This document shows, piece by piece, positions 34,374 through 52,722 of a DNA stretch of 64,000 nt (position 1 is the first letter of the stretch; every line of letters starts with the position of its first letter). A program made the translations under genes and the position numbers. Under the pieces are notes generated by a model. It did no database searches, was not told the origin of the DNA, and saw only the letters and a program-made list of their open reading frames with translations. The DNA lies in assembly GCA_913055605.1 (NCBI GenBank), contig CAJXKJ010000002.1, positions 62,001 to 126,000 on the forward strand, read 5' to 3'. The DNA comes from an uncultured Euryhalocaulis sp. GTDB lineage: Bacteria > Pseudomonadota > Alphaproteobacteria > Caulobacterales > Maricaulaceae.

Positions 34374-35012
34374 ATGGATATGAGCAGGCGGCAGCGGGGC
34401 TTTACCCTCGTGGAGCTGATGATCGTCGTCACGATCATCGGCATCCTGTCGGCGATCGCGGCGCCGATGTTCCTGGGCTATCTGCGCGAGGCCCATCTGA
34501 ACGAGGCGCGCCCCTATCTTCTCGAAATCGCGACCAAGCAGCGCGCCTATAAATACCGCAACGGCGCCTATTGCTGCGACGGCGAAAGCGGGCTGGACGA
34601 GTCCGATTACGCGCCCGAACTGGGCGTCGACCTGAACGAGGTCGGCAATTTCTGTTTCGCCGTGATCTGCCGCGATTCCTCGCTCTGCGAAAACCCGACA
34701 TCGACCAGCTTCATCGCCGCCTCGGAATCCGGAGACCCGACTGTGGAGTTCGAGGTCTGGGCCATCCTGCGGGACACCGCGACGGCCAGCGTTTCCGGTC
34801 CGAACAACGCCACCTGCCGGATGGACAGCGACAAGCAGGACCCGACCGGCTGGGTCGCCGCCGCCAATTCCGGACAGGCCGGGCGTCAGGGCCGCGCCAT
34901 CGTCTACCGCTATCCCGCCCCGCCCAACGGCCGGGACGCGGTGAACGGCGCCGACGGCGTGCGCATGAACTGGGTGGAGGGCGTCAGTGTCGCGCACGCC
35001 CTCACCCCGTAA
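34374..35012 (+). CDS. type IV pilin-like protein (prepilin, class III methylation site)
   Basis: 212 residues. Short leader RRQRG then FTLVELMIVVTIIGILSAIAAPMFLGYLREA, a textbook prepilin cleavage site (G/F) with Glu at +5. The globular part contains Cys residues in AYCCDGES, CFAVICRDSSLCEN and NATCRMD, so disulfides are likely after export. First gene of a six-gene unit of prepilins, PilZ and prepilin peptidase. It is probably a minor or alternative major subunit of the pilus made by the minus-strand operon. Confidence 0.9.
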   Translation: MDMSRRQRGFTLVELMIVVTIIGILSAIAAPMFLGYLREAHLNEARPYLLEIATKQRAYKYRNGAYCCDGESGLDESDYAPELGVDLNEVGNFCFAVICRDSSLCENPTSTSFIAASESGDPTVEFEVWAILRDTATASVSGPNNATCRMDSDKQDPTGWVAAANSGQAGRQGRAIVYRYPAPPNGRDAVNGADGVRMNWVEGVSVAHALTP

Positions 35013-35685
35013 GACGCGCGCCCGGCGGGCGCAGCGCGGTTTCACCCTTGTCGAGGTGATGGCGGCGGGCGTGATCCTGTCGATCTTCGTGCTGGGCGTC
35101 AGCGGCCTGTGGCGCGCCTCGACCAACCAGGTCTCCGACCTGATGGTCCGCCAGAAGGCCGTCTTCGCCCTGAACGCGGAGATGGAGCGCCTGACCGCGC
35201 TCTACAGCTACACGACGTTCGGCGTGAACGGCCCGGTCAGCACGACCAATTATTCCGGCGGCCTGCTGCCGACCCACCGCCTGATCTATCCGCTCGACAT
35301 GGACGATTACATGGACGGGGACGACGACAACGATTTCGTCACCAGCTCCTTCTCGTCGTTCCGCGACGATTCCGAATTCCTCGTCTATGTCGACCGCAGC
35401 TACTGGACCTACAACAACCGCGCCTATGTCTGGCTCGACCGCGACAGGAACGTCGCCGCGCGCCTGTCCTGGATCACCAATGACATCAATGTCGTGTTCT
35501 GCATCGGGGCGGACAATTGCTCCTGCCACGATTTCGACGGCTCCAGCAGTCCGCTGTTCAAGGATTATTGCCGCTATCTGACCCTGTATCTGGAATATCC
35601 GTACCGCTCGGATTCCGACGGCGACATGACCGCCGGCCCGGGTCTGCAGTCGCTCTCGCTCAAGACCATCGTGGGCCGCCTGTGA
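34987..35685 (+). CDS. minor prepilin (PilV/PulJ-like)
   Basis: 232 residues from a GTG start at 34987 inside the end of the preceding gene (26-base overlap). No better start precedes the cleavage site. Leader RRAQRG then FTLVEVMAAGVILSIFVLGVSGLWRASTNQVSDLMVRQKA, with Glu at +5. The C-terminal part has Asp-rich segments (YPLDMDDYMDGDDDNDFV) and a Cys group in CIGADNCSCHDFDG. Acidic clusters could bind calcium. It is probably part of the priming tip complex. Confidence 0.86.
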   Translation: MSRTPSPRKTRARRAQRGFTLVEVMAAGVILSIFVLGVSGLWRASTNQVSDLMVRQKAVFALNAEMERLTALYSYTTFGVNGPVSTTNYSGGLLPTHRLIYPLDMDDYMDGDDDNDFVTSSFSSFRDDSEFLVYVDRSYWTYNNRAYVWLDRDRNVAARLSWITNDINVVFCIGADNCSCHDFDGSSSPLFKDYCRYLTLYLEYPYRSDSDGDMTAGPGLQSLSLKTIVGRL

Positions 35686-36281
35686 GCCGCCGCGCCGCCC
35701 CCCGCGCCCAGCGCGGCTTTACGCTGTTCGAGCTGATGGCCGCTGTGACGATCAGCGCCGCGGTGCTGGCCCCCGCGATGGCGCTAATGTTCGCGGCCAT
35801 GGAATGGTCGACCCAGTCCGCCAGCCAGATCCGGCTGAACCAGCAGGCGCGCCTGATGCAGAGCGCGCTGATGGACGGCATGGCCACCACCTCCTCCGGC
35901 AAGGACGGCGTCAATTACGCCTACGGCCTGCGCGGCCGCGAAGAGGCGCCCAGCGGCAAGTGGAGCAACGGCTACACGCTGCGCTATCGCAGCAACAATA
36001 TCTGGGTCGAGGGCGACACGTTCACGACCATGACCGTGTCCTGCACCGATGTCGCCGATCCGCTGCCGGCCTGCTCCGGCCCCGGCGTCCAGCAGGTCGA
36101 CGGCTATCTGGCGCTGGAGCCCGAGGTGGAGGACGACGAGCGCAGCGTCGACGACCGCACGGTGGAGGTCACCCTCACCATCGTCGACCCGTTCGAGGCC
36201 CAGCGCCTGGAGAACCCGCGCGAGGTCACGGAGACCTATCGCCTGATCGCCACCATGATGCGCGACGAGAACGATCCATGA
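35682..36281 (+). CDS. minor prepilin (PilW/PulG-like)
   Basis: 199 residues from a GTG at 35682 overlapping the previous stop (GTGA). The longer track start is in another gene. Leader RRAAPRAQRG then FTLFELMAAVTISAAVLAPAMALMFAAMEWSTQSASQIRLNQQARLMQSAL, the N-terminal helix of a minor pilin with Glu at +5. The body includes YTLRYRSNNIWVEGDTFTTMTVSC and an acidic tail region. Tight coupling on both sides shows it is made together with the other minor pilins. Confidence 0.86.
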   Translation: MSRRAAPRAQRGFTLFELMAAVTISAAVLAPAMALMFAAMEWSTQSASQIRLNQQARLMQSALMDGMATTSSGKDGVNYAYGLRGREEAPSGKWSNGYTLRYRSNNIWVEGDTFTTMTVSCTDVADPLPACSGPGVQQVDGYLALEPEVEDDERSVDDRTVEVTLTIVDPFEAQRLENPREVTETYRLIATMMRDENDP

Positions 36282-39479: not shown

Positions 39480-41429
39480 TCACTCGTCTTCCGACATGAC
39501 GGTGACATCGACCGGCGTGGTCGCCCGGCGCATGTCCGGCGCGTCGGGGCCGTATTGCGTGGCCAGCACGCGCCGCTGCTGGTCGATATAGTCCTGCGAG
39601 CCGATGCGCACCGCGATGTCGTCCTGCAGCACGGCCTGCTCTGTCACCACGTGCGGGGTGATGAAGAAGATCGTCTCGCGCATCGATTCCGACTCGCTGG
39701 TCGTGCGGAACAGCGCGCCCAGGACCGGAATCTCCTTCAGGCCCGGAACCCCGCTTTCGCTGTCGATCCGCGTGCCGTCGAACAGGCCGCCGACCACATA
39801 GGTCGCCCCGTTCGGCACCAGCACATTGGTCTGCACTTCCTGCGAGGACACGTCGATCTGGCCGAACGAGCCGCTGCCCGGCGCGGAATTCTCCGCCCGC
39901 AGATCCAGCCGCACCAGCGATTCCGACTGCGCGGTCTCCGCTGGCACGATGGACGGCGTGATCTCCAGCGTCAGCCCGGTCTGGATTTCCTGCAGGCCCA
40001 CCCCGCCGGTGCCGCCGCCCTCCAGCCGCGTGTCGACCTGCACATAGATGTTCTGCGCCCGCGTGATGCGCGCGGTGATGTTGTCCAGCGTCACCAGGCG
40101 CGGCGCCGACAGGATGCGCACCCGGTCCTCGCTCGCCAGCGCGGTCAGCGAGGCCTGCAGCGCCGCCTCCTGCCCGCGCACGATGAAGGAGGCCGACGGC
40201 GCGAAATCGGGCAGCAGGTTCAGCGCGTCCAGCCCGTTGCTGTCGAACCGGTCGCTGCCGTCGGTCGGATTTCCGATCGGGCTGCCGGTCACCCCGCTGT
40301 CGAACCCGATACTGCCGGGCGTGGAGCCCGGATTGAGCAGCGAGCCGCGCAGCGCCAGGCCCAGCTGCCGCCCCACCCCGATATCGGCGTTGGCGATGAT
40401 GACCTCGATCTGGACCATCTGCAGCGGCCGGTCGAGCTGCAGGATCAGGCTGCGCACCTGTTCGATCTGCTCGCGCGAGCCCTGCACCACGACCGAATTG
40501 GTGCGCTGGTCGATGGAGATGCGCGGCGGCGGCTCATAGGCCGCGACCCACATGTTCGGATCGTCGCCCGAGCGCGCGCCCTGCACCATCGGCTCCTGCC
40601 CCATCAGCGCGTAGAGCGTGTCGGCGATGCCCGGCACCGTGACCTCCCGGCCCTGGAAGGTCCGGGTCGACGGGCCGACATTGGCGAAGCGCAGCGGGAT
40701 CACCTCGACCTCCTGCGGCGCCAGCACGACCGGCGGCGGGGCCGGCGCGGGCGGCGGCGCGGCGGCGGCGACCGGCTCGGGTCCGCCCTGCGGCCCGTCT
40801 TCCTGATCGGCCAGCGCCATCAGCAGGTCCGGCCGCATCGTGGTCAGCAGGCCGGTAATCCGGTTCACCCGCGCCCGGTCGCCGGAAATCGTGATGGTCT
40901 CGCCGAATGCGTCATAGGACACCCCGCCCAGACCGAGGCCCAGGCTGATCAGCGCCTCGCTCAGCTGGTCGTAGGATTCCTGGTCCAGCGGCAGCGACAC
41001 CTGCTGCTGCGCGAAATCGGCGGGCCCGGAGCGCGAGGTGACCATCACCGTCCGCGTCGTCGGGTCGTAGGTATAGGCCAGGTCGTATTGCTGGATCAGC
41101 TGGTCGAACGCGGTGGCGATCGGCACCCGGTCCAGCTGGAACGAGATCGGCCCCTGCACGTCCGGCCCGAACACGACCGACAGGCCGTTCGCCTGCAAAA
41201 TGCTGCGCAGCACGTTGCGGATGTCGTCGTTCGACGAGGTGCGGCTGATCACCAGCGTCGCGTTCCAGGGAATGTCGGAGCTCTGGGCCGGCGCGGCGGC
41301 CGGAACGGCCAGCGCCGTCGCCGCCAGCAGGGCGGCGGCCAGCGCCGCACGCGCCGCGCGTCCGCCTCTGTCCGCAGGGCGCAGCGCCCGTGCTGAACTA
41401 CGGTCCCCGCGCGCGCCCATGCGAATCAT
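39480..41429 (-). CDS. type IV pilus/MSHA-type secretin
   Basis: About 649 residues. The ATG at 41429 is chosen among several N-terminal candidates. A signal segment (RAALAAALLAATALAVPAAAPAQ) leads to a secretin/TonB short domain (IRNVLRSILQANGLSVVFGPDVQGPISFQLDRVPIATAFDQLI) and N domains with NSVVVQGSREQIEQVRSLILQLDRPLQMVQIEVIIANADIG. The C-terminal gate includes GLKEIPVLGALFRTTSESESMRETIFFITPHVV. This is the MshL/PilQ plan. It forms the outer-membrane channel through which the pilus grows. Confidence 0.92.
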   Translation of the reverse strand: MIRMGARGDRSSARALRPADRGGRAARAALAAALLAATALAVPAAAPAQSSDIPWNATLVISRTSSNDDIRNVLRSILQANGLSVVFGPDVQGPISFQLDRVPIATAFDQLIQQYDLAYTYDPTTRTVMVTSRSGPADFAQQQVSLPLDQESYDQLSEALISLGLGLGGVSYDAFGETITISGDRARVNRITGLLTTMRPDLLMALADQEDGPQGGPEPVAAAAPPPAPAPPPVVLAPQEVEVIPLRFANVGPSTRTFQGREVTVPGIADTLYALMGQEPMVQGARSGDDPNMWVAAYEPPPRISIDQRTNSVVVQGSREQIEQVRSLILQLDRPLQMVQIEVIIANADIGVGRQLGLALRGSLLNPGSTPGSIGFDSGVTGSPIGNPTDGSDRFDSNGLDALNLLPDFAPSASFIVRGQEAALQASLTALASEDRVRILSAPRLVTLDNITARITRAQNIYVQVDTRLEGGGTGGVGLQEIQTGLTLEITPSIVPAETAQSESLVRLDLRAENSAPGSGSFGQIDVSSQEVQTNVLVPNGATYVVGGLFDGTRIDSESGVPGLKEIPVLGALFRTTSESESMRETIFFITPHVVTEQAVLQDDIAVRIGSQDYIDQQRRVLATQYGPDAPDMRRATTPVDVTVMSEDE

Positions 41430-41502
41430 CCCCCCGCCAGTCAGGCTGGAAGAATACCGCATTTTGTGGCGCCGCAGGAAAAGACCGGCTGATTTAGTGC
41501 AG

Positions 41503-42306
41503 TTAGCTGTGGAGTTCGCAGAGCACGGCAGTGAGATTGTCGCGCCCGCCGCGCTCCAGCCCCAGCGAGATCAGCGCATCGCCCGCCGCCTCCATGGAGG
41601 CGCGATGATCGGCCAGCACGGTCTCGATCTCTTCATTGTCCATTTCGCCGCACACCCCGTCGGTGCAGATCAGCAGACGGTCGCCGGTGTCGGGGAAGAA
41701 GCTGTGCAGGTCGGGCTTCACCCGTTCGGACACGCCCAGCGCCTGCAGGATATATTTCTGCGACGGCGCCTCGCCGATCTCGCCGCCGCGGCGCCATTCC
41801 TCATAGGCCGAATGGTCCCGCGTCATCTGCAGCAGGCGATAGCCGCGCACGCGGTACACCCGGCTGTCGCCGACATGGAAGACCGTGGCGAAGGAGTCCG
41901 CGCCCAGCGGCGCCCAGACCCCGGCGATGGTCGCGCCGCTGCGCAGGCGCCGCTCGACCCGCCCGACATTGTGCGCCCGGATCCGGTCGTGCGCCGCCGC
42001 GATGGCGCGCCGCACATGGTTTTCGCGCGCCAGCCGCGCGGCGGCGTCGATGCCGTCCTGCAGGCCGTGCGTCATCGCGTCGTTCAGGCATTCGGCGAGA
42101 CACGCCACCGCCTCGCGGCTCGCCTGCCCGCCGCCCAGATGGCCGCCGACCCCGTCGGCGACGACCGCAAGCCCGATCTCGCCATGGACCAGCCAGGAAT
42201 CCTGGTTTTCCTTCTGCACGCGCCCGGCGTGCGTGACGCCGTAGGCGGTGAACCGCGCCGCCGGAACGATCTCGCCAAGCGTCAGTGTCTTGTCCATGAC
42301 AGTCAT
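41503..42306 (-). CDS. PP2C-type Ser/Thr protein phosphatase
   Basis: 267 residues with all PP2C metal-site motifs: VTHAGRVQKENQDSW, VVADGVGGHLGGGQAS, FHVGDSRVYRVR, CTDGVCGEMDNEEI and GGRDNLTAVL. Cytoplasmic, no membrane segment. Its start overlaps the stop of the PilO-P-like gene (ATGA-type), so it is made together with the pilus inner-membrane proteins. It is the natural antagonist of the Ser/Thr kinase encoded at the head of the same operon. Likely substrates are the kinase itself and threonines of operon proteins (inference). Confidence 0.92.
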   Translation of the reverse strand: MTVMDKTLTLGEIVPAARFTAYGVTHAGRVQKENQDSWLVHGEIGLAVVADGVGGHLGGGQASREAVACLAECLNDAMTHGLQDGIDAAARLARENHVRRAIAAAHDRIRAHNVGRVERRLRSGATIAGVWAPLGADSFATVFHVGDSRVYRVRGYRLLQMTRDHSAYEEWRRGGEIGEAPSQKYILQALGVSERVKPDLHSFFPDTGDRLLICTDGVCGEMDNEEIETVLADHRASMEAAGDALISLGLERGGRDNLTAVLCELHS

Positions 42307-43100
42307 CCGCGGTCCGCCAGCGTGTAGCGGAAGCCGACCGTGTATTGCCGCTCGCCGTCGGGGCCGGTTTCGCCCAGCGTCACGGTGTCCTCGTCGATCG
42401 TCTGCACCACGCGGCCGTCGATCCGGTCGCCGACGCGATAGTCGCGGTTGTCGATCGTCGCGATGCGCATGTCGCCGATCTGCGACACGCCCGTCAGGTG
42501 ATGCACCCAGGTGAGGTCGGCTGAGCCCGCTTCCGGGCGCCAGGACACCATGCCATTCCAGGCGCCGAACGGGTTGCGCGGCGGCTGTTCGCGCAGCGCC
42601 GCCTCGAACTGCACCGCATCGGCAAAGCTGTGCGCCGGCGGCAGATCGCTTTCGCGGAACGCCAGGGACAGGGGCAGCAGGCCGTTCGGCCCGGGCCCGC
42701 CCAGCTCCATCTCCACGATCTCCACCGACAGGCTCTCGAACCGGGCCAGGAAGCGGATCAGGTCGGAATAGGAGCCTTCAAGGCTCAGGCGGAACGTCTC
42801 GGACCCCGGCGCCAGCGGCGCCAGCTCGGTCAGGCGCACCTGAACGTTCACCGCGATCTCCTGCGCCCGCGCCATCAATTGGGGGACGGTCAGGTCGATC
42901 GCCCGGCCGGAAATCTCTTCGGTCGCGCCGGCCGCCGCCGCCGCGTTCTCGCGCTCGGCGCGCAGCGCCGCCATCATCTGCGACAGCTCGCGCGCGGCCT
43001 CTTTCTTCGGCGCCACATGGGCGGCCCAGACATAGCCCTGCGCCGCGATGGCCAGCACGGCCAGCGCAACGCCCAGAACGATTGCGTGAATCCGGGTCAT
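42303..43100 (-). CDS. PilO-like protein with C-terminal PilP-like domain
   Basis: 265 residues. One N-terminal transmembrane helix (IVLGVALAVLAIAAQGYVWAAHV), then a coiled coil (KKEAARELSQMMAALRAERENAAAAAG) and a ferredoxin-like PilO/MshJ domain (LSLEGSYSDLIRFLARFESLSVEIVEMEL). After RNPFGAWNG, a line like the start of PilP homology regions, comes a small beta domain LTGVSQIGDMRIATIDNRDYRVGDRIDGRVVQTIDEDTVTLGE as in PilP/GspC/MshK. So one chain seems to unite PilO and PilP functions, linking the inner-membrane platform to the secretin. Coupled by ATGA to the PilM-N gene. Confidence 0.78.
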   Translation of the reverse strand: MTRIHAIVLGVALAVLAIAAQGYVWAAHVAPKKEAARELSQMMAALRAERENAAAAAGATEEISGRAIDLTVPQLMARAQEIAVNVQVRLTELAPLAPGSETFRLSLEGSYSDLIRFLARFESLSVEIVEMELGGPGPNGLLPLSLAFRESDLPPAHSFADAVQFEAALREQPPRNPFGAWNGMVSWRPEAGSADLTWVHHLTGVSQIGDMRIATIDNRDYRVGDRIDGRVVQTIDEDTVTLGETGPDGERQYTVGFRYTLADRG

Positions 43101-44914
43101 TCGCCGTCCTCCCGGATCGCCAGCACGGTGAAGCGCGCGCCCGCCACATCCTGTTCGTCCGGCGCGCCGACGCCGCCGAACTCCACGCGCGGGAAGGCGG
43201 TGGCGAAGACGCTGTCCTTGTCCAGCCGGTCGATAAAGCCCGCGACCAGGCGCAGATCGCCCCCGGCCTCCTCGGGCAGCAGCCCGTCCAGCTGCAGCAC
43301 GCGCTGGCCGCTGTTGGTGTCCTCGCCGCTGTTCAGCGTCATGCCGGTCAGCCGCATGCCGGGCAGCATCGCCCCGCCGATCGACACCATGTTCTGCGCC
43401 CAGGACGCGCCGCGCGCGCCGGCCAGCGTCGGTCCGGCGGTCTCGGTGGCGTCCGATTGCGCGGACAGTTCGGCGACCAGCGTTCCATAGGCCGCGCTGC
43501 GCCGGTCCAGCGTCTTTTGCGCCGGGCCGATCACGTAATTGACGTTCAGGATCACGGCCAGCACCGCCGCGGCGGCCACGAAGAAGGCCGGCGCGATCCA
43601 GGCCGGCCGGCCCGGCGCGTCGTCGCCGTCACTGTCCTTGCGCAGCGCGGAGAATTTGCTCATCAGGCCGCCCTCCTCTTCTGCGCGCGCGGTCTTCTGA
43701 TCGGCACCGTTGCGGCGGTTGGCGGCGCGCCGGTTGCGCGGCGGGTCGGCCCGGCGGAACGCGCCGTTTTCGAACTGATAGGGCTCGTTGCCGGCCTTCA
43801 ACAGGCCGGACCGGACGCCTTCCAGAAGGTTCAGCGCGTGGGCGGACTCCATCGCCCCGTCCAGCACCGGCTCGCGCGCGTCGACCGGCAGGCCCAGCGC
43901 GTCGGACAGGAACTGGTCCAGCCCGGCCAGCGGCGGCCCGGTGAACTCCAGGTCCAGCTTCGCGGGCCGGTCGGCATAGCGTTCGAACTGGTAGTATTCG
44001 AGCGTCGCGGCCACTTCCGAATAAAGCTCGCGCTGGAACGGCGCCAGCGCCGTCAGACCCAGCGTGCGGTGCTCGGGCGGCAGTTCGGGCGACAGCACGG
44101 CCTCCACCGGCGCGAAGCGCACCCGTTCGGACAGCGCCGTGCAGGCCCGGTCCAGCGGCAGGCCGAACGCCCGCGCATAGCGCGATGCGGCGGTCAGCGC
44201 CCCCACCGGCACCTGGCGGGACGTGATCACTCCGCTTTGCGGCGTGTACAGCGTAATCGTCGAGAAATAGCCGTGGACGCGGACCGACATCGCGGCCTCG
44301 TCGCCGGCGTCCAGCGCCGGCGCGCCGGCCGGGGCGACCAGTTTCAGCGCCGTGGCCTTCGCGCCCAGCGGGAAGAACAGCGCCTCCATCCGCTCTTCGG
44401 GCAGATAGGCGATGGCGCGCCGCTCCAGCTCCTTCGCCCCGGTCTCGCCATAGGGGCGGGAGCTGAACACGACGGGCCGGCCGCCGCTCTGCTGCACGCC
44501 GAACTGGCGCAGGGCGCGCGGCTCGAAATTCGACAGCTTCGCGGCGCGGTGATCGGTCAGATACAGGTCCGGATCGTCCACCAACATCAGCACGCTGGTG
44601 ATGTTTTCCTCCAGCAGCGGCGTCCCCATCGGGGCCGACGCCGCGGCATGGGCCAGCGCGTGGGTCGGGTCGGCGCCGTCGCGGTCGACGCACAGGAAGC
44701 GGTGCGCCTGCGCCTTCACCTGTCCGGCGCGGTCCAGCAGCGCCAGGCGGTAGCCGACATCGCTGACGCTGATGACCAGCGCCAGCTCCTCGCCGGAATG
44801 GCCGTCATTCGAATTGCGCGCGCCCTCGCCGGAGAACGCGCCGATCAGCCGGGCGCCCAGCGAGCCCAGATCCTGGTTCGCCCAGGCCGGAAGGATGTGT
44901 TCGAGCTTGCGCAT
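43097..44914 (-). CDS. PilM-PilN fusion protein
   Basis: 605 residues. Residues 1 to about 400 are a PilM/MshI-type actin-like domain (ELALVISVSDVGYRLALLDRAG, YFSTITLYTPQSGVITSRQVPVGALTAA). A charged linker (NRRAANRRNGADQKTARAEEEGG) leads to a PilN part from Met418 with a transmembrane helix (WIAPAFFVAAAAVLAVILNVNYVI), a coiled coil and a ferredoxin-like domain ending VEFGGVGAPDEQDVAGARFTVLAI. The frame is open throughout, so a fusion is encoded. An internal ATG with its own ribosome site could also give free PilN. The protein would tie the cytoplasmic PilM ring directly to the membrane. Confidence 0.87.
   Translation of the reverse strand: MRKLEHILPAWANQDLGSLGARLIGAFSGEGARNSNDGHSGEELALVISVSDVGYRLALLDRAGQVKAQAHRFLCVDRDGADPTHALAHAAASAPMGTPLLEENITSVLMLVDDPDLYLTDHRAAKLSNFEPRALRQFGVQQSGGRPVVFSSRPYGETGAKELERRAIAYLPEERMEALFFPLGAKATALKLVAPAGAPALDAGDEAAMSVRVHGYFSTITLYTPQSGVITSRQVPVGALTAASRYARAFGLPLDRACTALSERVRFAPVEAVLSPELPPEHRTLGLTALAPFQRELYSEVAATLEYYQFERYADRPAKLDLEFTGPPLAGLDQFLSDALGLPVDAREPVLDGAMESAHALNLLEGVRSGLLKAGNEPYQFENGAFRRADPPRNRRAANRRNGADQKTARAEEEGGLMSKFSALRKDSDGDDAPGRPAWIAPAFFVAAAAVLAVILNVNYVIGPAQKTLDRRSAAYGTLVAELSAQSDATETAGPTLAGARGASWAQNMVSIGGAMLPGMRLTGMTLNSGEDTNSGQRVLQLDGLLPEEAGGDLRLVAGFIDRLDKDSVFATAFPRVEFGGVGAPDEQDVAGARFTVLAIREDGE
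43661..43676 (-). promoter_or_regulatory. internal ribosome site and ATG for free PilN
   Basis: Within the fusion gene, GGAGG (43672-43676) lies 8 bases before an in-frame ATG at 43663 that begins MSKFSALRKDSDG, exactly where a separate PilN would start. Spacing and position fit a functional internal start or a relic of formerly separate genes. Confidence 0.6.
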
Positions 44915-44923
44915 CGGCGGCCC

Positions 44924-47146
44924 CTAAGCGCTCGAGACCAGCGGAACGCGCGGCTTTCCGGACGCGGCGCTGGCGCCCGGCGGCGGCGGGCACGCGGTGA
45001 ACCGCACGCCGCCCACCTCGATCTGCACGTTCACCGGCATCGGCGCGCGGCGATGGAACGCCAGGCCGCCGATCATCGCCGGACCGGCGCCGTCCGGCGT
45101 GATCCAGTAGCCGCCTTCGTCATATTCGATATGCGCGACCGAATCCGCCGTCGCGCTGTCGGCCTGCAGCGCGCAGTCCGGCGCGGCGCCCAGTGTGATG
45201 CGCGAGCCCAGCACGATCCAGCGGCGGCGGGTCTCCTCCGCCCAGCTCGACCAGCGGATTTCCGCCGCGGCCTTCTCGATCTTCGCCTCGTCCACCGTGA
45301 AGCGCGCCAGCACCGCGTCCGGGTCGCGCTTGCCGCGGATCAGGCGCAGCGCCACCGGCGGACAGGAGTCCGGGTCGCGCCCGATGCGCAGCTCGCTGGT
45401 CCCCTCGGGCAGCAGCTCGGCCTGGCCGGCCTCCAGCGGGACGCCGTTCATCAGATTGCCGTTGGTGCTGCCCAGATCCTCGACCAGCCAGTCGCCGTTG
45501 CGGGCATAGACGCTCAGATTGCGTTCGCCGCGGGAGAACCAGCGGCAATTGGTGGCGATGTCGACCGCCCCGCCGGCCGCGCCGCGGCCCACGACTGCGG
45601 GTTTTCCGGCGATCAGGCGTACCGGGTCGCCGCCCTCGATATCCAGATCGACCGGGCTGGCGGCCAGAAGCTCGCGCTCCAGCAGCCGCTCCAGCTGGGC
45701 CAGACGGTCCGCCACGGTCGGGCTGGACGCCTTGCTCTCCAGGCACAGCCGCGCCTCGTGACAGGCGGCCAGCGCCTCCAGCGGCTTGCCCTTCATCACC
45801 AGGCTGGGGATGCGGCGCACGACTTCGTGCACCGGGTCCAGCGACGGATCGGGGAAGGACGCGTCCGGGTCGATCACCAGCGTCTCGTCGGCTTCCGGCG
45901 CCGCGGCGATGATCTCGGACAGCAGCGCCTGGATGACGCCGATCTTGGAGTTGGACGGGGCGACCACGGCCTGGGTCCGGTCGGTCAGCGACCCAGCCCG
46001 CCGCGACCATTCCTCGAAAAAGGCCGGGATGCGGTCGGCCGTCATCGGACGGCTGATGAAATAGCCCTGGGCGTAATCGCAGCCGAAAGAGCGCAGCTGT
46101 TCGAACGCCTGCTCGGTCTCCACGCCCTCGGCCACGACCTTCAGCCCGATGCGCCGCGCCATCGACGCGGTCGTCTCGATCAGGGCGCGCGCCTCCTCGC
46201 TGTCGGCGAGGTCCATGACGAAGCTCTTGTCCAGCTTCAGCTCCCCGAAGGGCAGCTTGTAGAGATTGGCCAGCGACGAGAAGCCGGTGCCGAAATCGTC
46301 GATGCTGAGCGTGAAGCCCTTCAGCCGCAGCCGGGTCAGCACGTCCAGCGCCGCGCTGTTCTCCGCGCCCATCGAGCTTTCGGTGATCTCCAGCGTCACG
46401 TCTTCGGGCGAAACGCCGAATTCCTCGCAGCGCTCCAGGAACTGCGTGCTCCAGACATTGTCGTTCAGCAGCAGCGGCGAAACATTGATCGCGGCGACCA
46501 GATGCAGGCCCGCGGCGCGCCAGGCGGCGAGGTCCGCGAACACCTGACGGGTGACGGAGTCGGTCAGCTGCTGGATCAGGCCGCTATTCTCGGCGACCGA
46601 AATGAACTGGTCGGGATAGACGTCGCCCAGCTCCGGATGGCGCAGACGCACCAGCGCCTCGACGGAATAGCGGGGCTCCGACGGCGGATCGAACGGCACC
46701 TTGGGCTGGTATTCCACGCGCAGGAAATTCTGCTCGATACTGTCCTGCAGATTGGTCGCGGTGATGTCCGTCCGGTCCTTCGGCGCCTCGGCCAGGCAGG
46801 CTTTCAGCGTGTCCTCGTCGAACTTGTCGTTGCGCACGACCCGGACGTTGAATTGTTTGGATCGGGCCAGCCGCTCGGTCGACTGGGCGGTCTTGGCGTC
46901 CAGCCCGGTGACGATCAGCACCGCCGCCTCCGGCGCCGCCGTGCACAGCTTTTCGATCAGCTCGAAACCGCCGCCGGCGCGGCCGACCACGTCCACGACA
47001 ACCGCCTTCACGTCGCCCTTGGCCAGCGCCTCGTCCAGCGCGGCCGGCGAATCCAGGCGCAGCGCGTCCATCTTCATGCGCGCGGCGCACGCCGCAGCGG
47101 TATCCGCGACGCCAGAATCGTCGTGCAGGATCGCAATCTTAGGCAT
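44924..47146 (-). CDS. REC-like / EAL phosphodiesterase / tandem FHA protein
   Basis: 740 residues. Residues 1-120 resemble a receiver domain (acceptor candidate Asp52 in AVVVDVVGRAGGGFELIEKL). Residues 130-385 are an EAL domain with catalytic marks intact: EALVRLRHP (163), TLEITESS (251), SIDDFGTGFSSL (281), LKLDKSFV, VAEGVET and QGYFISRP. It should therefore hydrolyse c-di-GMP. A helical linker with a TPR-like segment (450-495) leads to an FHA domain (505-590) with AVVGRG, FSRGERN and DLGSTNGNLMNG, so the phosphothreonine-binding Arg, Ser and Asn are in place. A weaker second FHA-like domain follows (645-718, RITLGAAPDCAL). It lies inside the pilus operon. Confidence 0.88.
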   Translation of the reverse strand: MPKIAILHDDSGVADTAAACAARMKMDALRLDSPAALDEALAKGDVKAVVVDVVGRAGGGFELIEKLCTAAPEAAVLIVTGLDAKTAQSTERLARSKQFNVRVVRNDKFDEDTLKACLAEAPKDRTDITATNLQDSIEQNFLRVEYQPKVPFDPPSEPRYSVEALVRLRHPELGDVYPDQFISVAENSGLIQQLTDSVTRQVFADLAAWRAAGLHLVAAINVSPLLLNDNVWSTQFLERCEEFGVSPEDVTLEITESSMGAENSAALDVLTRLRLKGFTLSIDDFGTGFSSLANLYKLPFGELKLDKSFVMDLADSEEARALIETTASMARRIGLKVVAEGVETEQAFEQLRSFGCDYAQGYFISRPMTADRIPAFFEEWSRRAGSLTDRTQAVVAPSNSKIGVIQALLSEIIAAAPEADETLVIDPDASFPDPSLDPVHEVVRRIPSLVMKGKPLEALAACHEARLCLESKASSPTVADRLAQLERLLERELLAASPVDLDIEGGDPVRLIAGKPAVVGRGAAGGAVDIATNCRWFSRGERNLSVYARNGDWLVEDLGSTNGNLMNGVPLEAGQAELLPEGTSELRIGRDPDSCPPVALRLIRGKRDPDAVLARFTVDEAKIEKAAAEIRWSSWAEETRRRWIVLGSRITLGAAPDCALQADSATADSVAHIEYDEGGYWITPDGAGPAMIGGLAFHRRAPMPVNVQIEVGGVRFTACPPPPGASAASGKPRVPLVSSA

Positions 47147-47259
47147 TTCGGCGTTTTCGCCTTTTTAACCCCACCAAGGGGCGGGATCATGCGCCCGCAC
47201 CGGGAAACACCGGGTTAAAATCGCTGCACAGCGGGCGCCCGCAGGCGCCGGAAACAGCG

Positions 47260-48303
47260 TCAGGTGGAGACGCCGGAAATCTCGAAAACCGGCAGGAACG
47301 CGGCGATCAGCATGCCGGCGATCAGCGCCCCGATCACCGACGTCATGATCGGGTTCATCAGGGAGATCGCGGCGTCCAGACGCTGCACCCACAGGCTCTC
47401 GAAATAGTTCGCGACAGAGCGCAGCGGCTCGGACAGCTCGCCGGTCTTTTCCCCGGCGGAGATCATCTGCTGCACCACGCCCTGGAACAGTTTGTGGCGG
47501 GCGAAGGCCTGGGCGATGCCCTTGCCGTTCTCGATCTCGTCGGCGACCGCGTACAGGCTCTGCTCGACGAATTTATTGTTGCTGGCCGGCGCGGCGACGC
47601 GGATCGCGTCGATCAGCGAAACCGCGTTCTGCACCTGAATGCTCAGCGTGTGGGCGAAGCGCGCCAGCGCCTCCAGCCGCCACAGCGAACCCAGAACCGG
47701 CACCTTCAGCTTCCAGGTGTCGATCGTCATGCGCCCGGATTCGGTGCGCGACCACAGGATCCAGCCCAGCACCGCCAGGCCGATCCCGCCGAAAATGTAT
47801 TGCCAGGACGAGGAATACAGGTCGCCCAGCCCCAGCACCGCGCGCGTCGGCGCCGGCAGCGGCCGGTCGAACTGGCTGAACAGCTTCTCGAACCGGGGCA
47901 GGATGCCGAACACCATGGCGTGGAACACGCCGACCAGCGCCATTAGCAGCACGCCCGGATACAGCATCGCGGTGCGCACTTTTTTGCGCACATGGTCCAG
48001 CCCGGTCAGATAGTTGCCGATCTCGTGCAGCGCCTGTTCCAGCTGGCCGGTCTGCATGCCGGCGCGCACCACGCCCACATAGGTGGAGTTGAAGATGCGC
48101 GGGTGGTCGGCCAGCGCCCGGTCGAACTCCAGCCCGGTGCGCACCTTGTCCAGGATGTCGCTGATGGCGTTGCGGAACCGGCCTTTCGGCGCCTCGCGCG
48201 ACAGGCTTTCCAGCGCCTGCACCAGCGGCAGGTTGGACCGCACCATGGCGGAAAACTGCTTGGTGAAGATCAGCAGTTCGGAACTGGAGGCGCCGCCTAT
48301 CAT
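47260..48303 (-). CDS. pilC: type IV pilus platform protein (PilC/MshG/GspF)
   Basis: 347 residues with two T2SF domains: LLIFTKQFSAMVRSNLPLVQALESLSREAPKGRFRNAISDILDKVRTGLEFDRAL and ARFAHTLSIQVQNAVSLIDAIRVAAPASNNKFVEQSL ... MISAGEKTGELSEPLRSVANYFE. Membrane helices lie at VLLMALVGVFHAMVFGIL, YIFGGIGLAVLGWILW and the C-terminus. The N-terminal extension of some PilC proteins is missing, giving the shorter MshG-like size. It is the inner-membrane rotor turned by the assembly ATPase, whose gene ends 10 bases upstream. Confidence 0.93.
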   Translation of the reverse strand: MIGGASSSELLIFTKQFSAMVRSNLPLVQALESLSREAPKGRFRNAISDILDKVRTGLEFDRALADHPRIFNSTYVGVVRAGMQTGQLEQALHEIGNYLTGLDHVRKKVRTAMLYPGVLLMALVGVFHAMVFGILPRFEKLFSQFDRPLPAPTRAVLGLGDLYSSSWQYIFGGIGLAVLGWILWSRTESGRMTIDTWKLKVPVLGSLWRLEALARFAHTLSIQVQNAVSLIDAIRVAAPASNNKFVEQSLYAVADEIENGKGIAQAFARHKLFQGVVQQMISAGEKTGELSEPLRSVANYFESLWVQRLDAAISLMNPIMTSVIGALIAGMLIAAFLPVFEISGVST

Positions 48304-48313
48304 GGCTCCGCCC

Positions 48314-50494
48314 TCACGCGTCCCCGAACACGCGGATCAGCTCGGAGAAGGTCGTGCGGCCTTCCTCGACCAGCGCCATGCCGTTCTGGATCATCGTGGT
48401 GAAGCCGGCCTGGTGGGCCAGCTTGCGCAGCTCGTCGCTGTCGAAATGCTCCGACACGATCAGCTTGCGCATGTCGGTGCTGACCGGGACCATTTCGAAC
48501 ACCGGCTGGCGGCCGGAATAGCCGGTATGGCGGCAGTGCGGACAGCCGGTCGGCTGCACCACCGGCATGTTGTCGTCGATCTCGATGCCCATGCGCTCCA
48601 GCTTTTCCAGGCTGACGCCCTCGTTGCGGAGCTTGCGCATGATCTCGCGCCCCTCGACCAGCGTGGAGCACTGGTTGCAGGTCACCCGCACCAGGCGCTG
48701 CGACAGGGTCAGGGACAGCGCCGCGGCGACCAGATACGGGTCGATCTTCATGTCCAGCAGGCGCGTGATGACGCTCAGGCAGTCATTGGCGTGGATCGTG
48801 GAGAACACGACGTGGCCGGTCAGGGCGGCCTGAACCGCCATGTGGCCGGTCTCGCGGTCGCGGCACTCCCCGACCATGATGACGTCCGGGTCCTGACGCA
48901 GCACGGTGCGCAGGCCGGCGGCGAAGGTCAGGTTGATCTTGTCGTTCACCTGCATCTGGTGAACGCCGTTCAGCCGGTATTCGACCGGATCCTCGATGGT
49001 CACGACATTGCGCTGCACGCGGTCGACCGCGGTCAGGAAGGAATACAGCGTCGTGGTCTTGCCGGAGCCGGTCGGCCCGCCGATCAGGATCAGGCCGTGC
49101 GGCGCGTTGATCTTGTCCAGGATGGTGCGCAGGTTCGAGTCGCGCAGGCCGAGCTGTTCCGGGCTCGGGCGCAGCGCCGTCTCGTCCAGCAGGCGCATCA
49201 CGACCTTCTCGCCCAGCACCGTCGGCAGGGTGGAGACGCGGACGTCCAGCGGCGATTTGCGGATCATCACGCTGATGCGGCCGTCCTGCGGGCGGCGGCG
49301 CTCGGCCACGTCCATCTGGGCCAGCACCTTGATGCGCGACACCACCGCCGAATGCAGCTCCAGCGGCATCCGGCTTTCCTCGTGCATCAGGCCGTCGATC
49401 CGGGCGCGGATCAGCATCCCGTCCTCGGTCGGCTCGATATGGATGTCGGAGGCTTTCTGGTTCTGGCAGCGCTGCAGGATGTAATCCACGATCAGCGGCA
49501 CGTCGGCCGTAAGCGGCTGGTCCAGCAACATGTTTTCCTGCTGCCAGGACACGTCGATCGGCACGAAATTCTCGTCGCCCCGGCGCGGCGCCTCGACCCG
49601 TGTCTTCAGCCCCGCCAGCACCTCGTAGAACACTTCGGGCAGCACCACGACCGGCTCCACCGGCCGGCCGGTCTGGCCGCGCAGCCAGTCGCGCAGCACC
49701 AGGTCGAACGGGTCCAGCATGGCGCAGGGCGCGCGCTCGGCCCCGGCCTCGGATTTCAGCAGCAGCACGCCGCGCGTGTCGGCGCATTTGGCGTCCAGCC
49801 ACTCCACTTCCTCGATGGCGGAGGCCAACTCGTCGCGCGTGGCGATGAAGCGCATGCCCTCCTGCTCGGCCAGCACCCGGTACAGGCTGGCGTCGGAGGC
49901 GGCGTGGCCGTCGGCGGCCAGCGCCTGGAAAAAGGTCACGCCCTGTTCGCGGGCGCGCAGGGCGATGGACACCGCGTCGCGCTCCAGCAGCGCGCTGGAG
50001 GCGACCAGCCGCCGCGCGACCGGACCCAGAACGCCGCCGCCATTGTCTTCGGGCCTGGCGGCCCCGGCGCCGCCCGCGGCGCCGCGCGCCTGGATTTCCT
50101 TCAGGTCGGACAGGCGGCGGATGACCGAGCCGTCCTCGGCCCAGGCCGCCGGCAGCGGCCGCTCGGTCTGCACCGGCGGCTGCGCCGCGTCCTCCACCGT
50201 GGTGATCTTCGGCGCCGGCGCCGGATCGCCCAGCGCGGAGCCCAGCGTCACGTCGTCGCCGACCACGACCGTCGCGTCGTCCTCGGCCTGCGAGGTCTGC
50301 GTCGTCTGCGTGGGCCGCGCCGGCGCGGGTTCGGCGCCGCCGTCCAGCACCACCGTGGCGTCGTCGCTCTCCGCCTGCGGCGCAGGCGCGTCATCGCCCA
50401 GAACGACCGTGGGGTCGTCTTCGGCGGCGGCCGATGCCTCGTCGCCGAGGACGATCGTGGCGTCGTCGTCGTTTTTGGGTTTGGGGGCGGCCAT
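48314..50494 (-). CDS. pilB: pilus assembly ATPase (PilB/MshE/GspE) with repeat-bearing N-terminal tail
   Basis: 726 residues. Residues 1-85 are an acidic disordered-looking tail with four DDxTVVLGD-type repeats. An MshEN-like domain follows (about 145-215, VARRLVASSALLERDAVSIALRAREQG), with poor agreement to the c-di-GMP motif. The catalytic core has Walker A GGPTGSGKTTTLYSFL, Walker B/His region DPDVIMVGECRDRETGHMAVQAALTGHVVFSTIHANDC and a zinc tetra-Cys CNQC ... CPHC. The usual GEIRD is GECRD. It powers pilin extraction and assembly. The kinase gene ends 10 bases upstream, so synthesis is coupled. Confidence 0.93.
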   Translation of the reverse strand: MAAPKPKNDDDATIVLGDEASAAAEDDPTVVLGDDAPAPQAESDDATVVLDGGAEPAPARPTQTTQTSQAEDDATVVVGDDVTLGSALGDPAPAPKITTVEDAAQPPVQTERPLPAAWAEDGSVIRRLSDLKEIQARGAAGGAGAARPEDNGGGVLGPVARRLVASSALLERDAVSIALRAREQGVTFFQALAADGHAASDASLYRVLAEQEGMRFIATRDELASAIEEVEWLDAKCADTRGVLLLKSEAGAERAPCAMLDPFDLVLRDWLRGQTGRPVEPVVVLPEVFYEVLAGLKTRVEAPRRGDENFVPIDVSWQQENMLLDQPLTADVPLIVDYILQRCQNQKASDIHIEPTEDGMLIRARIDGLMHEESRMPLELHSAVVSRIKVLAQMDVAERRRPQDGRISVMIRKSPLDVRVSTLPTVLGEKVVMRLLDETALRPSPEQLGLRDSNLRTILDKINAPHGLILIGGPTGSGKTTTLYSFLTAVDRVQRNVVTIEDPVEYRLNGVHQMQVNDKINLTFAAGLRTVLRQDPDVIMVGECRDRETGHMAVQAALTGHVVFSTIHANDCLSVITRLLDMKIDPYLVAAALSLTLSQRLVRVTCNQCSTLVEGREIMRKLRNEGVSLEKLERMGIEIDDNMPVVQPTGCPHCRHTGYSGRQPVFEMVPVSTDMRKLIVSEHFDSDELRKLAHQAGFTTMIQNGMALVEEGRTTFSELIRVFGDA
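50255..50470 (-). repeat. four DDxT(I/V)V(L/V) repeats coding region in the ATPase tail
   Basis: Residues 9-80 of the ATPase contain DDATIVLGD (Thr13), DDPTVVLGD (Thr29), DDATVVLDG (Thr47) and DDATVVVGD (Thr75), separated by Ala/Pro/Glu-rich spacers. Each gives an isolated Thr after acidic residues with an aliphatic residue at +3, a layout suited to phosphorylation and FHA binding. Phosphorylation is inference. Confidence 0.85.
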
Positions 50495-50504
50495 GGTCTG
50501 CGCC

Positions 50505-52094
50505 CTAGGCTTCGAACGCGATGCGGAAGCCGAGATCGGCGCGGCGCTCGCCGGCCGGGGCGCGATGGCGGAAGCCGCAGCGCCCGGTCATGGACGGGCT
50601 ATCGAAGCCGCCGCCGCGGATCGCGCGCATGTCCGGCCCGCCCTCGGCGACCGGGTCCTGCGCGTCCGCGGGCATGGATTTCAGATAGGCGTCGTCCCAC
50701 GGGTCGGCGCACCATTCCCAGACATTGCCGCAGAAATCGCTGAGGCCCCATCCGTTGTCGCCGGTGGGATAGGCGCCGACCGGCGTCGGCGCGGCGCATA
50801 CCCCGTCGATATTGGCCTGGCTGTTCAGCGGACGCGCCTCGCCCCAGGGCCAGGCGCTGTCGGCCGCCCCGGCGCGCGCGGCCGCTTCCCATTCCATTTC
50901 CGTGGGCAGGCGCCCGCCCGCCCATTTGGCGTAGGCGCTGGCGTCTTCCCAGCTGACCATGACGACCGGCTGGTCGTCGGCGGCGAAGCGCGGATGGCCC
51001 ATCAGGGCCGGCGCGGCGTAGCCGGTCGCCTGCAGGAAGGCGCGGTACTGGGCGTTGGTCACCGGCGTGCGCGCGATGCGGAAGGCCGACAGGCGCACCT
51101 TGCGGTGCGGCTGGTCGCAGGCGCGCAGCGCGCCGCCGCGCTCGCCCACGGGCCAGGCGCCTTCGGGAACCGCATAGGCGTCCTCGCGCAGATCGGCCGA
51201 CTTTTCGCCATGGGCAAACGGGTCGCGCAGGCGCACGCGGTCCAGGATCGCCCCGGCCTCGGCGGCGGTCTGGGGCCGCTTGTCCGGGTCGTGATCCAGC
51301 ATCTGCAGGACCAGCCGGTCCAGTTCGGGCGGCAGCGCGGCGCAGAAGGCGCTCGGCGGCGCGATGTCCTCGGGCCGGAAGACCGGCAGCGCGCCGGTGC
51401 GCGCGGCGTCCTTCAGGCTGCACGGCGGGATATGGCCGCCGGTCAGAAGCTCATAGGCGATCATGCCCATCGCATAGATGTCGGCGCGCCGGTCCACCTC
51501 GTCGGGGGTCAGCAGCTGCTCCGGCGCCATGTATTTCGGCGTGCCGCCCTGCAGCGCGGAGGCCGCGTCCTGCTCGGGCAGGGAGCTCAGGCCGAAATCC
51601 ATCACGATCGGCTGGGCGATGTCGTTGTTCTTGATGAAGACGTTGGCCGGCTTCAGGTCGCGGTGCGTGATCTGGGAGTGCGCGAAGTCCAGCGCCGCGG
51701 TCAGCTTGCGCAGCACCGTCATGCGCTGCTCGATGGTTTCCAGAAGGCGGCTGTCATGGGCCTGCATCCAGGCCTTCAGGTCGGACCCTTCGATCAGGTC
51801 CATCACGATGCCGACGCCCTGCGGGCCTTCGTACAGATCGTGGATCGCGCAGATATTCGGGTGGCGCAGCTTGCGGGAGATCAGGACTTCCCGGCGAAGC
51901 GAGGCGACATAGCGGGTGTCCCCGGCATGCACCTGTTTGAGGATTTTGATGGCGAGCGGAACGCCCAGCTCGCTGTCATAGACCTTGAAGACGTCGGCGG
52001 ACCCGCCGCGACCGATCAGGCTCCAGTCAGAGAAGCGATCGGCAGGCGCGCTGCGCCCGCCTGCCGATTCTGCCTCAACCCCTGTGCGCTGCAT
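50505..52094 (-). CDS. Ser/Thr protein kinase fused to a formylglycine-generating-enzyme-like domain
   Basis: 529 residues. Hanks-type kinase at about 22-290 with all key residues: GRGGSADVF loop, AIK Lys50, HRDLKPAN (144-151), DFG (166-168), APE (190-192), and an activation-loop Thr at 185. No transmembrane helix, so it is cytoplasmic. Residues 310-529 are a FGE/SUMF1 fold (FRIARTPVTNAQYRAFLQATGY, GGRLPTEMEWEAAARAG, GLSDFCGNVWEWCAD, ending FGFRHRAPAGERRADLGFRIAFE-like). At the catalytic Cys positions it has AIRGGGFDSPSMTGRC, so enzyme activity is unlikely and a binding role more so. It lies between the pilin and the assembly ATPase genes. Confidence 0.92.
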   Translation of the reverse strand: MQRTGVEAESAGGRSAPADRFSDWSLIGRGGSADVFKVYDSELGVPLAIKILKQVHAGDTRYVASLRREVLISRKLRHPNICAIHDLYEGPQGVGIVMDLIEGSDLKAWMQAHDSRLLETIEQRMTVLRKLTAALDFAHSQITHRDLKPANVFIKNNDIAQPIVMDFGLSSLPEQDAASALQGGTPKYMAPEQLLTPDEVDRRADIYAMGMIAYELLTGGHIPPCSLKDAARTGALPVFRPEDIAPPSAFCAALPPELDRLVLQMLDHDPDKRPQTAAEAGAILDRVRLRDPFAHGEKSADLREDAYAVPEGAWPVGERGGALRACDQPHRKVRLSAFRIARTPVTNAQYRAFLQATGYAAPALMGHPRFAADDQPVVMVSWEDASAYAKWAGGRLPTEMEWEAAARAGAADSAWPWGEARPLNSQANIDGVCAAPTPVGAYPTGDNGWGLSDFCGNVWEWCADPWDDAYLKSMPADAQDPVAEGGPDMRAIRGGGFDSPSMTGRCGFRHRAPAGERRADLGFRIAFEA

Positions 52095-52134: not shown

Positions 52135-52722
52135 CTATTCCTCGCCGGCGCAGGACGTACAGGTCGCGGTGGCCGCGCCCGCAGCGGAGCAATAGCCGCC
52201 GGCCGTCGCGCCGGTCAGGTCGGTTTCCCCGTTGATGTAGGGAATTCGGTTCATCTTGCCGTCCCAGCCAGCGGCGCTGGTGGAGGCGCTGGACCACAGG
52301 ACCATGCCGCCCTCGACGGACGCGCCGTCCAGGCCGGTGGCCGTGATGCAGTAGACCACCTCGCCGGTCAGCGGGCCGCCGGTGGCGACGATCGCGTCCA
52401 CTTCGTATTCGAAGCTGGAGCCCGGATTGGCTTCGATGGTCGGGATAAGGGCGGTCAGCGTGCCCGTGCCGTCCGGCTCGACGGTCAGACCGTCGACTTC
52501 GGCCTGCACATCGGCCGCCGACTTCAGCTGCGACTGCGCATAGCCGTCCAGGCCGGCGATGATCTTGCCGGCGGTCTGGGACACTTCAGCGGTCGAGCTG
52601 GTGCGGACATACGTGAAGAGGCGCGGAATACCCACCGCGGCCAGAATTCCGATGATGGTCACCGCGACCATCAGTTCAACGAGGGTGAAGCCTCGCTGCT
52701 TGCGCTTGGACGTCGGTTGCAT
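52135..52722 (-). CDS. type IV pilin, probable major subunit
   Basis: 195 residues. Leader MQPTSKRKQRG then FTLVELMVAVTIIGILAAVGIPRLFTYVRTSSTAEVSQTAGKI, the strict type IVa prepilin pattern with Glu at +5. The globular part ends with a Cys cluster (GGYCSAAGAATATCTSCAGEE) and another Cys in VVYCITATG, so two disulfides are possible. First gene of the minus-strand operon and preceded by the longest intergenic region of the locus, as expected of a strongly made major pilin. Confidence 0.92.
   Translation of the reverse strand: MQPTSKRKQRGFTLVELMVAVTIIGILAAVGIPRLFTYVRTSSTAEVSQTAGKIIAGLDGYAQSQLKSAADVQAEVDGLTVEPDGTGTLTALIPTIEANPGSSFEYEVDAIVATGGPLTGEVVYCITATGLDGASVEGGMVLWSSASTSAAGWDGKMNRIPYINGETDLTGATAGGYCSAAGAATATCTSCAGEE

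Follow-up and report, generated by a model that had tools for sequence, protein, structure and literature searches.

The window, a stretch of 64,000 nucleotides from an uncultured Euryhalocaulis sp., contains on its minus strand an operon whose genes follow one another in the order prepilin-like protein, Hanks-type Ser/Thr kinase, assembly ATPase, platform protein, EAL-FHA protein, PilM/N-like protein, PilO/P-like protein, PP2C-type phosphatase, and secretin (Table 1). The PilO/P-like label is based on gene order and appearance, with a Pfam T2SSB match that is sub-threshold. Kinase, phosphatase and FHA protein share this one operon with the genes of the filament machine, and in a search of the whole 3.16-Mb assembly with Pfam profiles, the single FHA match, the single Pkinase match and the single PP2C_2 match all fell inside it; these counts hold at the Pfam level and for an assembly of 98 contigs, and divergent members, or PP2C proteins covered by another model, could escape them. 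The kinase is the probable writer and the phosphatase the probable eraser of a phosphorylation system, and the EAL-FHA protein is, as judged from its domains, probably both the reader and a c-di-GMP phosphodiesterase. Two plus-strand features were noted in addition: type IV prepilin-like N-termini (GFTLVE/GFTLFE) are encoded at 34374-36281, apart from the minus-strand operon, and a 1378-aa open frame at 43082-47218, which runs antisense to two genuine genes, is apparently an artefact of high GC content.

Table 1. Coordinates of the operon genes and of the motifs discussed (positions in the window)
Feature	Position	Strand	Evidence
Type IV prepilin-like protein	52135..52722	-	Pfam N_methyl 4e-11
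Hanks-type Ser/Thr kinase with FGE-sulfatase-like domain	50505..52094	-	Pfam Pkinase 1.5e-41, FGE-sulfatase 2e-51
PilB/GspE-type assembly ATPase, 726 aa	48314..50494	-	Pfam T2SSE 3e-121, MshEN 2e-6
Repeat 1, DDATIVLGD, ATPase residues 10-18, Thr13	50441..50467	-	translation
Repeat 2, DDPTVVLGD, ATPase residues 26-34, Thr29	50393..50419	-	translation
Repeat 3, DDATVVLDG, ATPase residues 44-52, Thr47	50339..50365	-	translation
Repeat 4, DDATVVVGD, ATPase residues 72-80, Thr75	50255..50281	-	translation
PilC/GspF-type platform protein	47260..48303	-	Pfam T2SSF 2.7e-49
REC-like/EAL/linker/helical/FHA/FHA-like C-terminal protein	44924..47146	-	Pfam EAL 2e-65, FHA 1.3e-4
Linker motif DETLVID, Thr422	45869..45889	-	disordered stretch before FHA domain
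FHA domain	45335..45661	-	Pfam; alignment
PilM/PilN-like protein	43097..44914	-	gene order and appearance; no Pfam match
PP2C-type phosphatase	41503..42306	-	Pfam PP2C_2 1e-12
Secretin	39480..41462	-	Pfam Secretin 1e-38

The assembly ATPase and its N-terminal tail

The ATPase is composed of a low-complexity tail (residues ~1-120), a degenerate MshEN-like region, and the T2SSE motor domain, in which an alignment with the orthologues confirmed the Walker A motif (GPTGSGKTTTLY) and the Cys4 site with its CxxC pairs. The MshEN match is weak and covers only a part of the profile, and in this weakly matching region, no RLG motif was spotted by eye across the orthologues, and a PDB sequence search gave no match. 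A preliminary description of the locus had stated that the N-terminal tail departs from the usual start of PilB/MshE proteins, and the comparison with relatives agrees with this: Walker A is found at residue 474, versus residues 193-304 in the 17 GspE/PilB-type ATPases that were read in relatives, and the tail motif is absent from all 17, so that the N-terminal extension must be regarded as unusual. In a charge-hydropathy test, only residues ~1-80 were called disordered. A predicted fold of the ATPase from a 3-row alignment was set aside because of its poor quality (mean pLDDT 37.5).

The translation bears out four Thr-centred repeats within the first 80 residues (50255-50467), and their strict consensus is DD[AP]T[IV]V. 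When residues 1-100 were shuffled 200,000 times with preservation of composition, each shuffled sequence held at most one strict motif, versus the four observed copies, and a looser [DE][DE]xT[IVLM][IVLM] pattern reached a maximum of two; a chance origin of the four repeats is excluded. The Ala, Val, and Leu codons differ between the copies and the linkers are mutually dissimilar, which also rules out a recent tandem duplication at the DNA level. A DNA pattern for DD[AP]T[IVM]V had four matches in the whole assembly, all of them in the ATPase tail, and its reversed control had none; paired motifs at short spacing were found in this ATPase gene alone among 385 genomes of the class. An abundance of the full motif in proteins without FHA or kinase partners, which would have spoken against the initial description, was not seen, either for the single motif in the genome or for the paired motif in the 385 genomes. 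The relaxed core D-x-T-hydrophobic is common, also in unrelated proteins: of its 56 sites in the assembly, five belong to the operon, namely the four tail repeats and one site at 45873-45889 in the linker before the FHA domain. The information therefore lies only in the full motif and in the clustering of its copies. A text search of the literature with the motif letters returned unrelated papers only.

With its upstream acidic residues and a hydrophobic residue at +3, the tail motif matches known preferences of writers and readers (PMC7164672, PMC5549992). Acidic residues upstream and Leu/Val at +3 are overrepresented at PknA-dependent sites (PMC7164672), FHA domains select on the pT+3 position, with pTxxV among the reported motifs (PMC5549992), and the self-binding tail of DgcB has Glu at -2 and hydrophobic residues at +2/+3 (PMC6733907).

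The EAL-FHA protein and its linker motif

The structure model of the putative reader (mean pLDDT 74.4) comprises an N-terminal alpha/beta domain, the EAL domain, a linker, helices, and two beta domains, and its best Foldseek match is RocR, a REC-EAL phosphodiesterase. The EAL motifs VEAL, INVSP, LEITE, IDDFGTG, LDK, EGVE, and QG were recognized by reading, and the domain thus appears to have the catalytic residues as well as the fold of an EAL domain. In the FHA domain, the pocket elements GR, SR, and STNG are invariant in six aligned sequences, and the His of the S-x-x-H motif is not kept, the sequence being SRGE instead. The label "FHA-like" for the C-terminal domain comes solely from its predicted beta fold and from reading, as an hhalign comparison with the first FHA domain gave no support.

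Linker residues 417-432, which include Thr422, have pLDDT values below 50 and are predicted to be disordered. The D-x-T-hydrophobic motif in front of the FHA domain is present in seven homologues in the variants DETLVI, DDHTVVL, DDATIVL, DSTVVL, DATLVL, and NETLML, with the Thr being invariant. This Thr is one of just 32 invariant columns in the alignment of the FHA proteins, and it lies in gap-rich surroundings.

Orthologous operons and loci without the ATPase

A search of 60 close relatives found no ATPase orthologue, and the ATPases of close relatives are ~45% identical and have no tail. With the FHA part as query, five homologues were obtained from a different family of the class, and at least one further contig, binned as Oxalobacteraceae (L052), came from a scan of named genomes; genome sets at class, family, and phylum level yielded few further FHA homologues. 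In three loci (L045, L046, and L052), kinase, ATPase, platform protein, and EAL-FHA protein are encoded in an order identical to that of the operon described here. The three orthologous ATPases are 63% identical to the ATPase of this operon, and their tails, which are otherwise diverged, contain two motif copies each (DDATVVL/SDATMVV, DDLTMVV/LDATLVV, and DDMTIVV/LDATLVV), versus four here. The four operons that encode both ATPase and reader all have the signature in the two proteins, a small sample, as only four ATPases are available and two of these are close to each other. The three orthologous tails share a third element after the two motifs, DPT[RH]VEFLRKVQARA, which reads DGSVIRRLSDLKEIQARG in the ATPase studied here. 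The L052 contig (Oxalobacteraceae bin, UBA5157) contains runs of N, and its operon is highly similar to that of an alphaproteobacterial MAG (L046/L051); the contig is possibly misbinned.

Three further loci (L042, L043, and L044) come from genomes in which an ATPase of the kind described here was not found. They have a gene for an EAL-FHA or an FHA-only protein, with a kinase gene near the FHA gene and a PP2C gene nearby, and apparently represent a free-standing version of the kinase/FHA/PP2C module. The L043 kinase has Cache and HAMP domains according to Pfam, the L042 and L044 kinases are its homologues, and this kinase type was found in three of the 28 genomes tested, which are exactly those with the ATPase-less FHA locus. 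All three kinases end with a degenerate C-terminal Thr motif (TNATLIVK in L043, DRTLVAK in L044, and DGATLLL in L042) that the kinase of our operon does not have. A distant homologue of the FHA region from elsewhere in the phylum (L048:124-2364) has a long membrane/helical N-terminal part in place of the EAL domain.

Discussion

The preliminary description had interpreted the repeats as docking motifs for an FHA domain, and our analyses support this well, if indirectly, by the presence of the motif both in the orthologous tails and in front of the FHA domain of the reader, and by the finding that the FHA, kinase, and PP2C_2 matches of the operon are the only ones in the assembly. As the only kinase, the matching phosphatase, and the pThr reader that were found share one cluster with the motor, the motor is probably switched by phosphorylation of its tail. 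We consider it rather probable that the repeats are phospho-Thr docking sites, with the kinase marking the tail, the FHA domain docking there together with the EAL enzyme, and the PP2C phosphatase resetting the system. The degenerate Thr motifs at the ends of the kinases in the ATPase-less loci also favour this reading; less favourable to it are the small set of orthologues, the unequal copy number of the repeats (four versus two), the lack of a C-terminal Thr motif in the kinase of this operon, and the frequency of the short core in unrelated proteins. Within the disordered tail of the ATPase, a hexamer, the kinase would phosphorylate the motif DDxT[IV]V[LV] at its Thr, and the FGE-like domain of the kinase probably tunes its activity. 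The FHA domain of the reader would then bind to the phosphorylated tail, and this docking would place the c-di-GMP phosphodiesterase, or the reader as a scaffold, at the motor and thereby switch filament assembly, until the phosphatase of the operon removes the phosphate. The Thr motif of the linker probably serves as a competitor in cis, causing autoinhibition, or as an oligomerisation site, in the manner of GarA, OdhI, and DgcB. Multivalent binding, which had been suggested from the repetition, is plausible, although the related tails have two copies; a hexamer would offer up to 24 sites, which could allow graded occupancy. More tentatively, the only kinase and the only FHA reader of the cell might serve a single filament machine, and the number of phospho-sites on the tails could set the number of phosphodiesterases per hexamer and in this way a graded local c-di-GMP level and assembly activity.

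The Thr sites of the tail might instead switch the ATPase directly by charge or conformation, in which case the FHA domain would read nothing but the linker of its own protein or the kinase. The linker Thr is indeed the best-conserved copy of the motif and is kept in homologues from genomes without the ATPase, and FHA proteins of the GarA/OdhI type work in cis (PMC6733907). However, the hydrophobic residues at +1 to +3, which fit an FHA ligand, are common to tail and linker, and wherever ATPase and reader occur in one operon both have the signature, so that we regard a direct switch as unlikely. Even less likely is that the tail functions independently of phosphorylation, as an array of acidic linear motifs that binds to the platform protein, the EAL protein, or another partner via beta-strand addition or charge. 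The motifs are strongly acidic and contain Val/Leu, and the FHA domain of DgcB also binds its unphosphorylated tail (PMC6733907), but the Thr is constant in every copy whereas the flanks vary, and the only kinase, PP2C_2, and FHA genes detected in the genome are together in one operon. That the repeats are a neutral expansion of a low-complexity linker is very improbable, as the motif, but not the linkers, persists in orthologues that have diverged and also recurs in another protein, and the codons differ among the copies, even though the copy number varies among orthologues and the acidic tail is Ala/Pro/Asp-rich with a GC-rich coding sequence.

If docking at the phosphorylated tail applies, Ser/Thr phosphorylation would be linked to c-di-GMP signalling at the motor of a filament. 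In the literature searched, which was mostly outside subscription journals, we found no case of a bacterial ATPase of the type IV pilus/T2SS type that acts as a phosphorylated docking partner; direct pThr-FHA control is known for the T6SS and has been proposed for T7SS variants. With one kinase, one PP2C_2 phosphatase, and one FHA protein at the Pfam level, and with four defined sites, the genome is a clean test bed.

The closest parallel is the threonine phosphorylation pathway of the T6SS (PpkA/PppA/Fha), in which pThr14 of Agrobacterium TssL recruits Fha (PMC3953482). As in that pathway, kinase and FHA reader are encoded with the machine that they control, and an N-terminal cytoplasmic pThr on a machine component, demonstrated there and proposed here, recruits the FHA protein (PMC3953482). 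Unlike in the T6SS, the target would be the assembly ATPase, whose tail has four repeated sites, and an EAL domain is part of the reader; moreover, prepilin, T2SSE, T2SSF, and secretin assign the machine to the type IV filament/T2SS type, and the operon is therefore not a member of the T6SS pathway. The T7SS variants c-j likewise have a kinase and a PPM phosphatase alongside the secretion system, with FHA domains often on the ATPase or else on an accessory protein (PMC11217815), whereas the ATPase described here bears the putative ligand motifs. With Bdellovibrio DgcB, an FHA-GGDEF protein, the reader has in common that an FHA domain is joined to a c-di-GMP enzyme and that this protein also has the pThr motif, known there and putative here, in a disordered segment (PMC6733907), but the enzyme is of the EAL and not the GGDEF type, and the motif of the reader occupies an internal linker and recurs on the ATPase.

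In mycobacterial and corynebacterial GarA/OdhI, an acidic-Thr-hydrophobic motif and an FHA domain likewise lie close together within one protein, but these are metabolic regulators without a filament machine as partner. The Xanthomonas FimX-PilZ-PilB system resembles our operon in that an EAL protein is tied to a pilus assembly ATPase, and EAL structures of FimX were among the structural matches of the reader. FimX works via PilZ. Unlike FimX, the reader has its best matches among catalytic phosphodiesterases such as RocR, MucR, and BifA.
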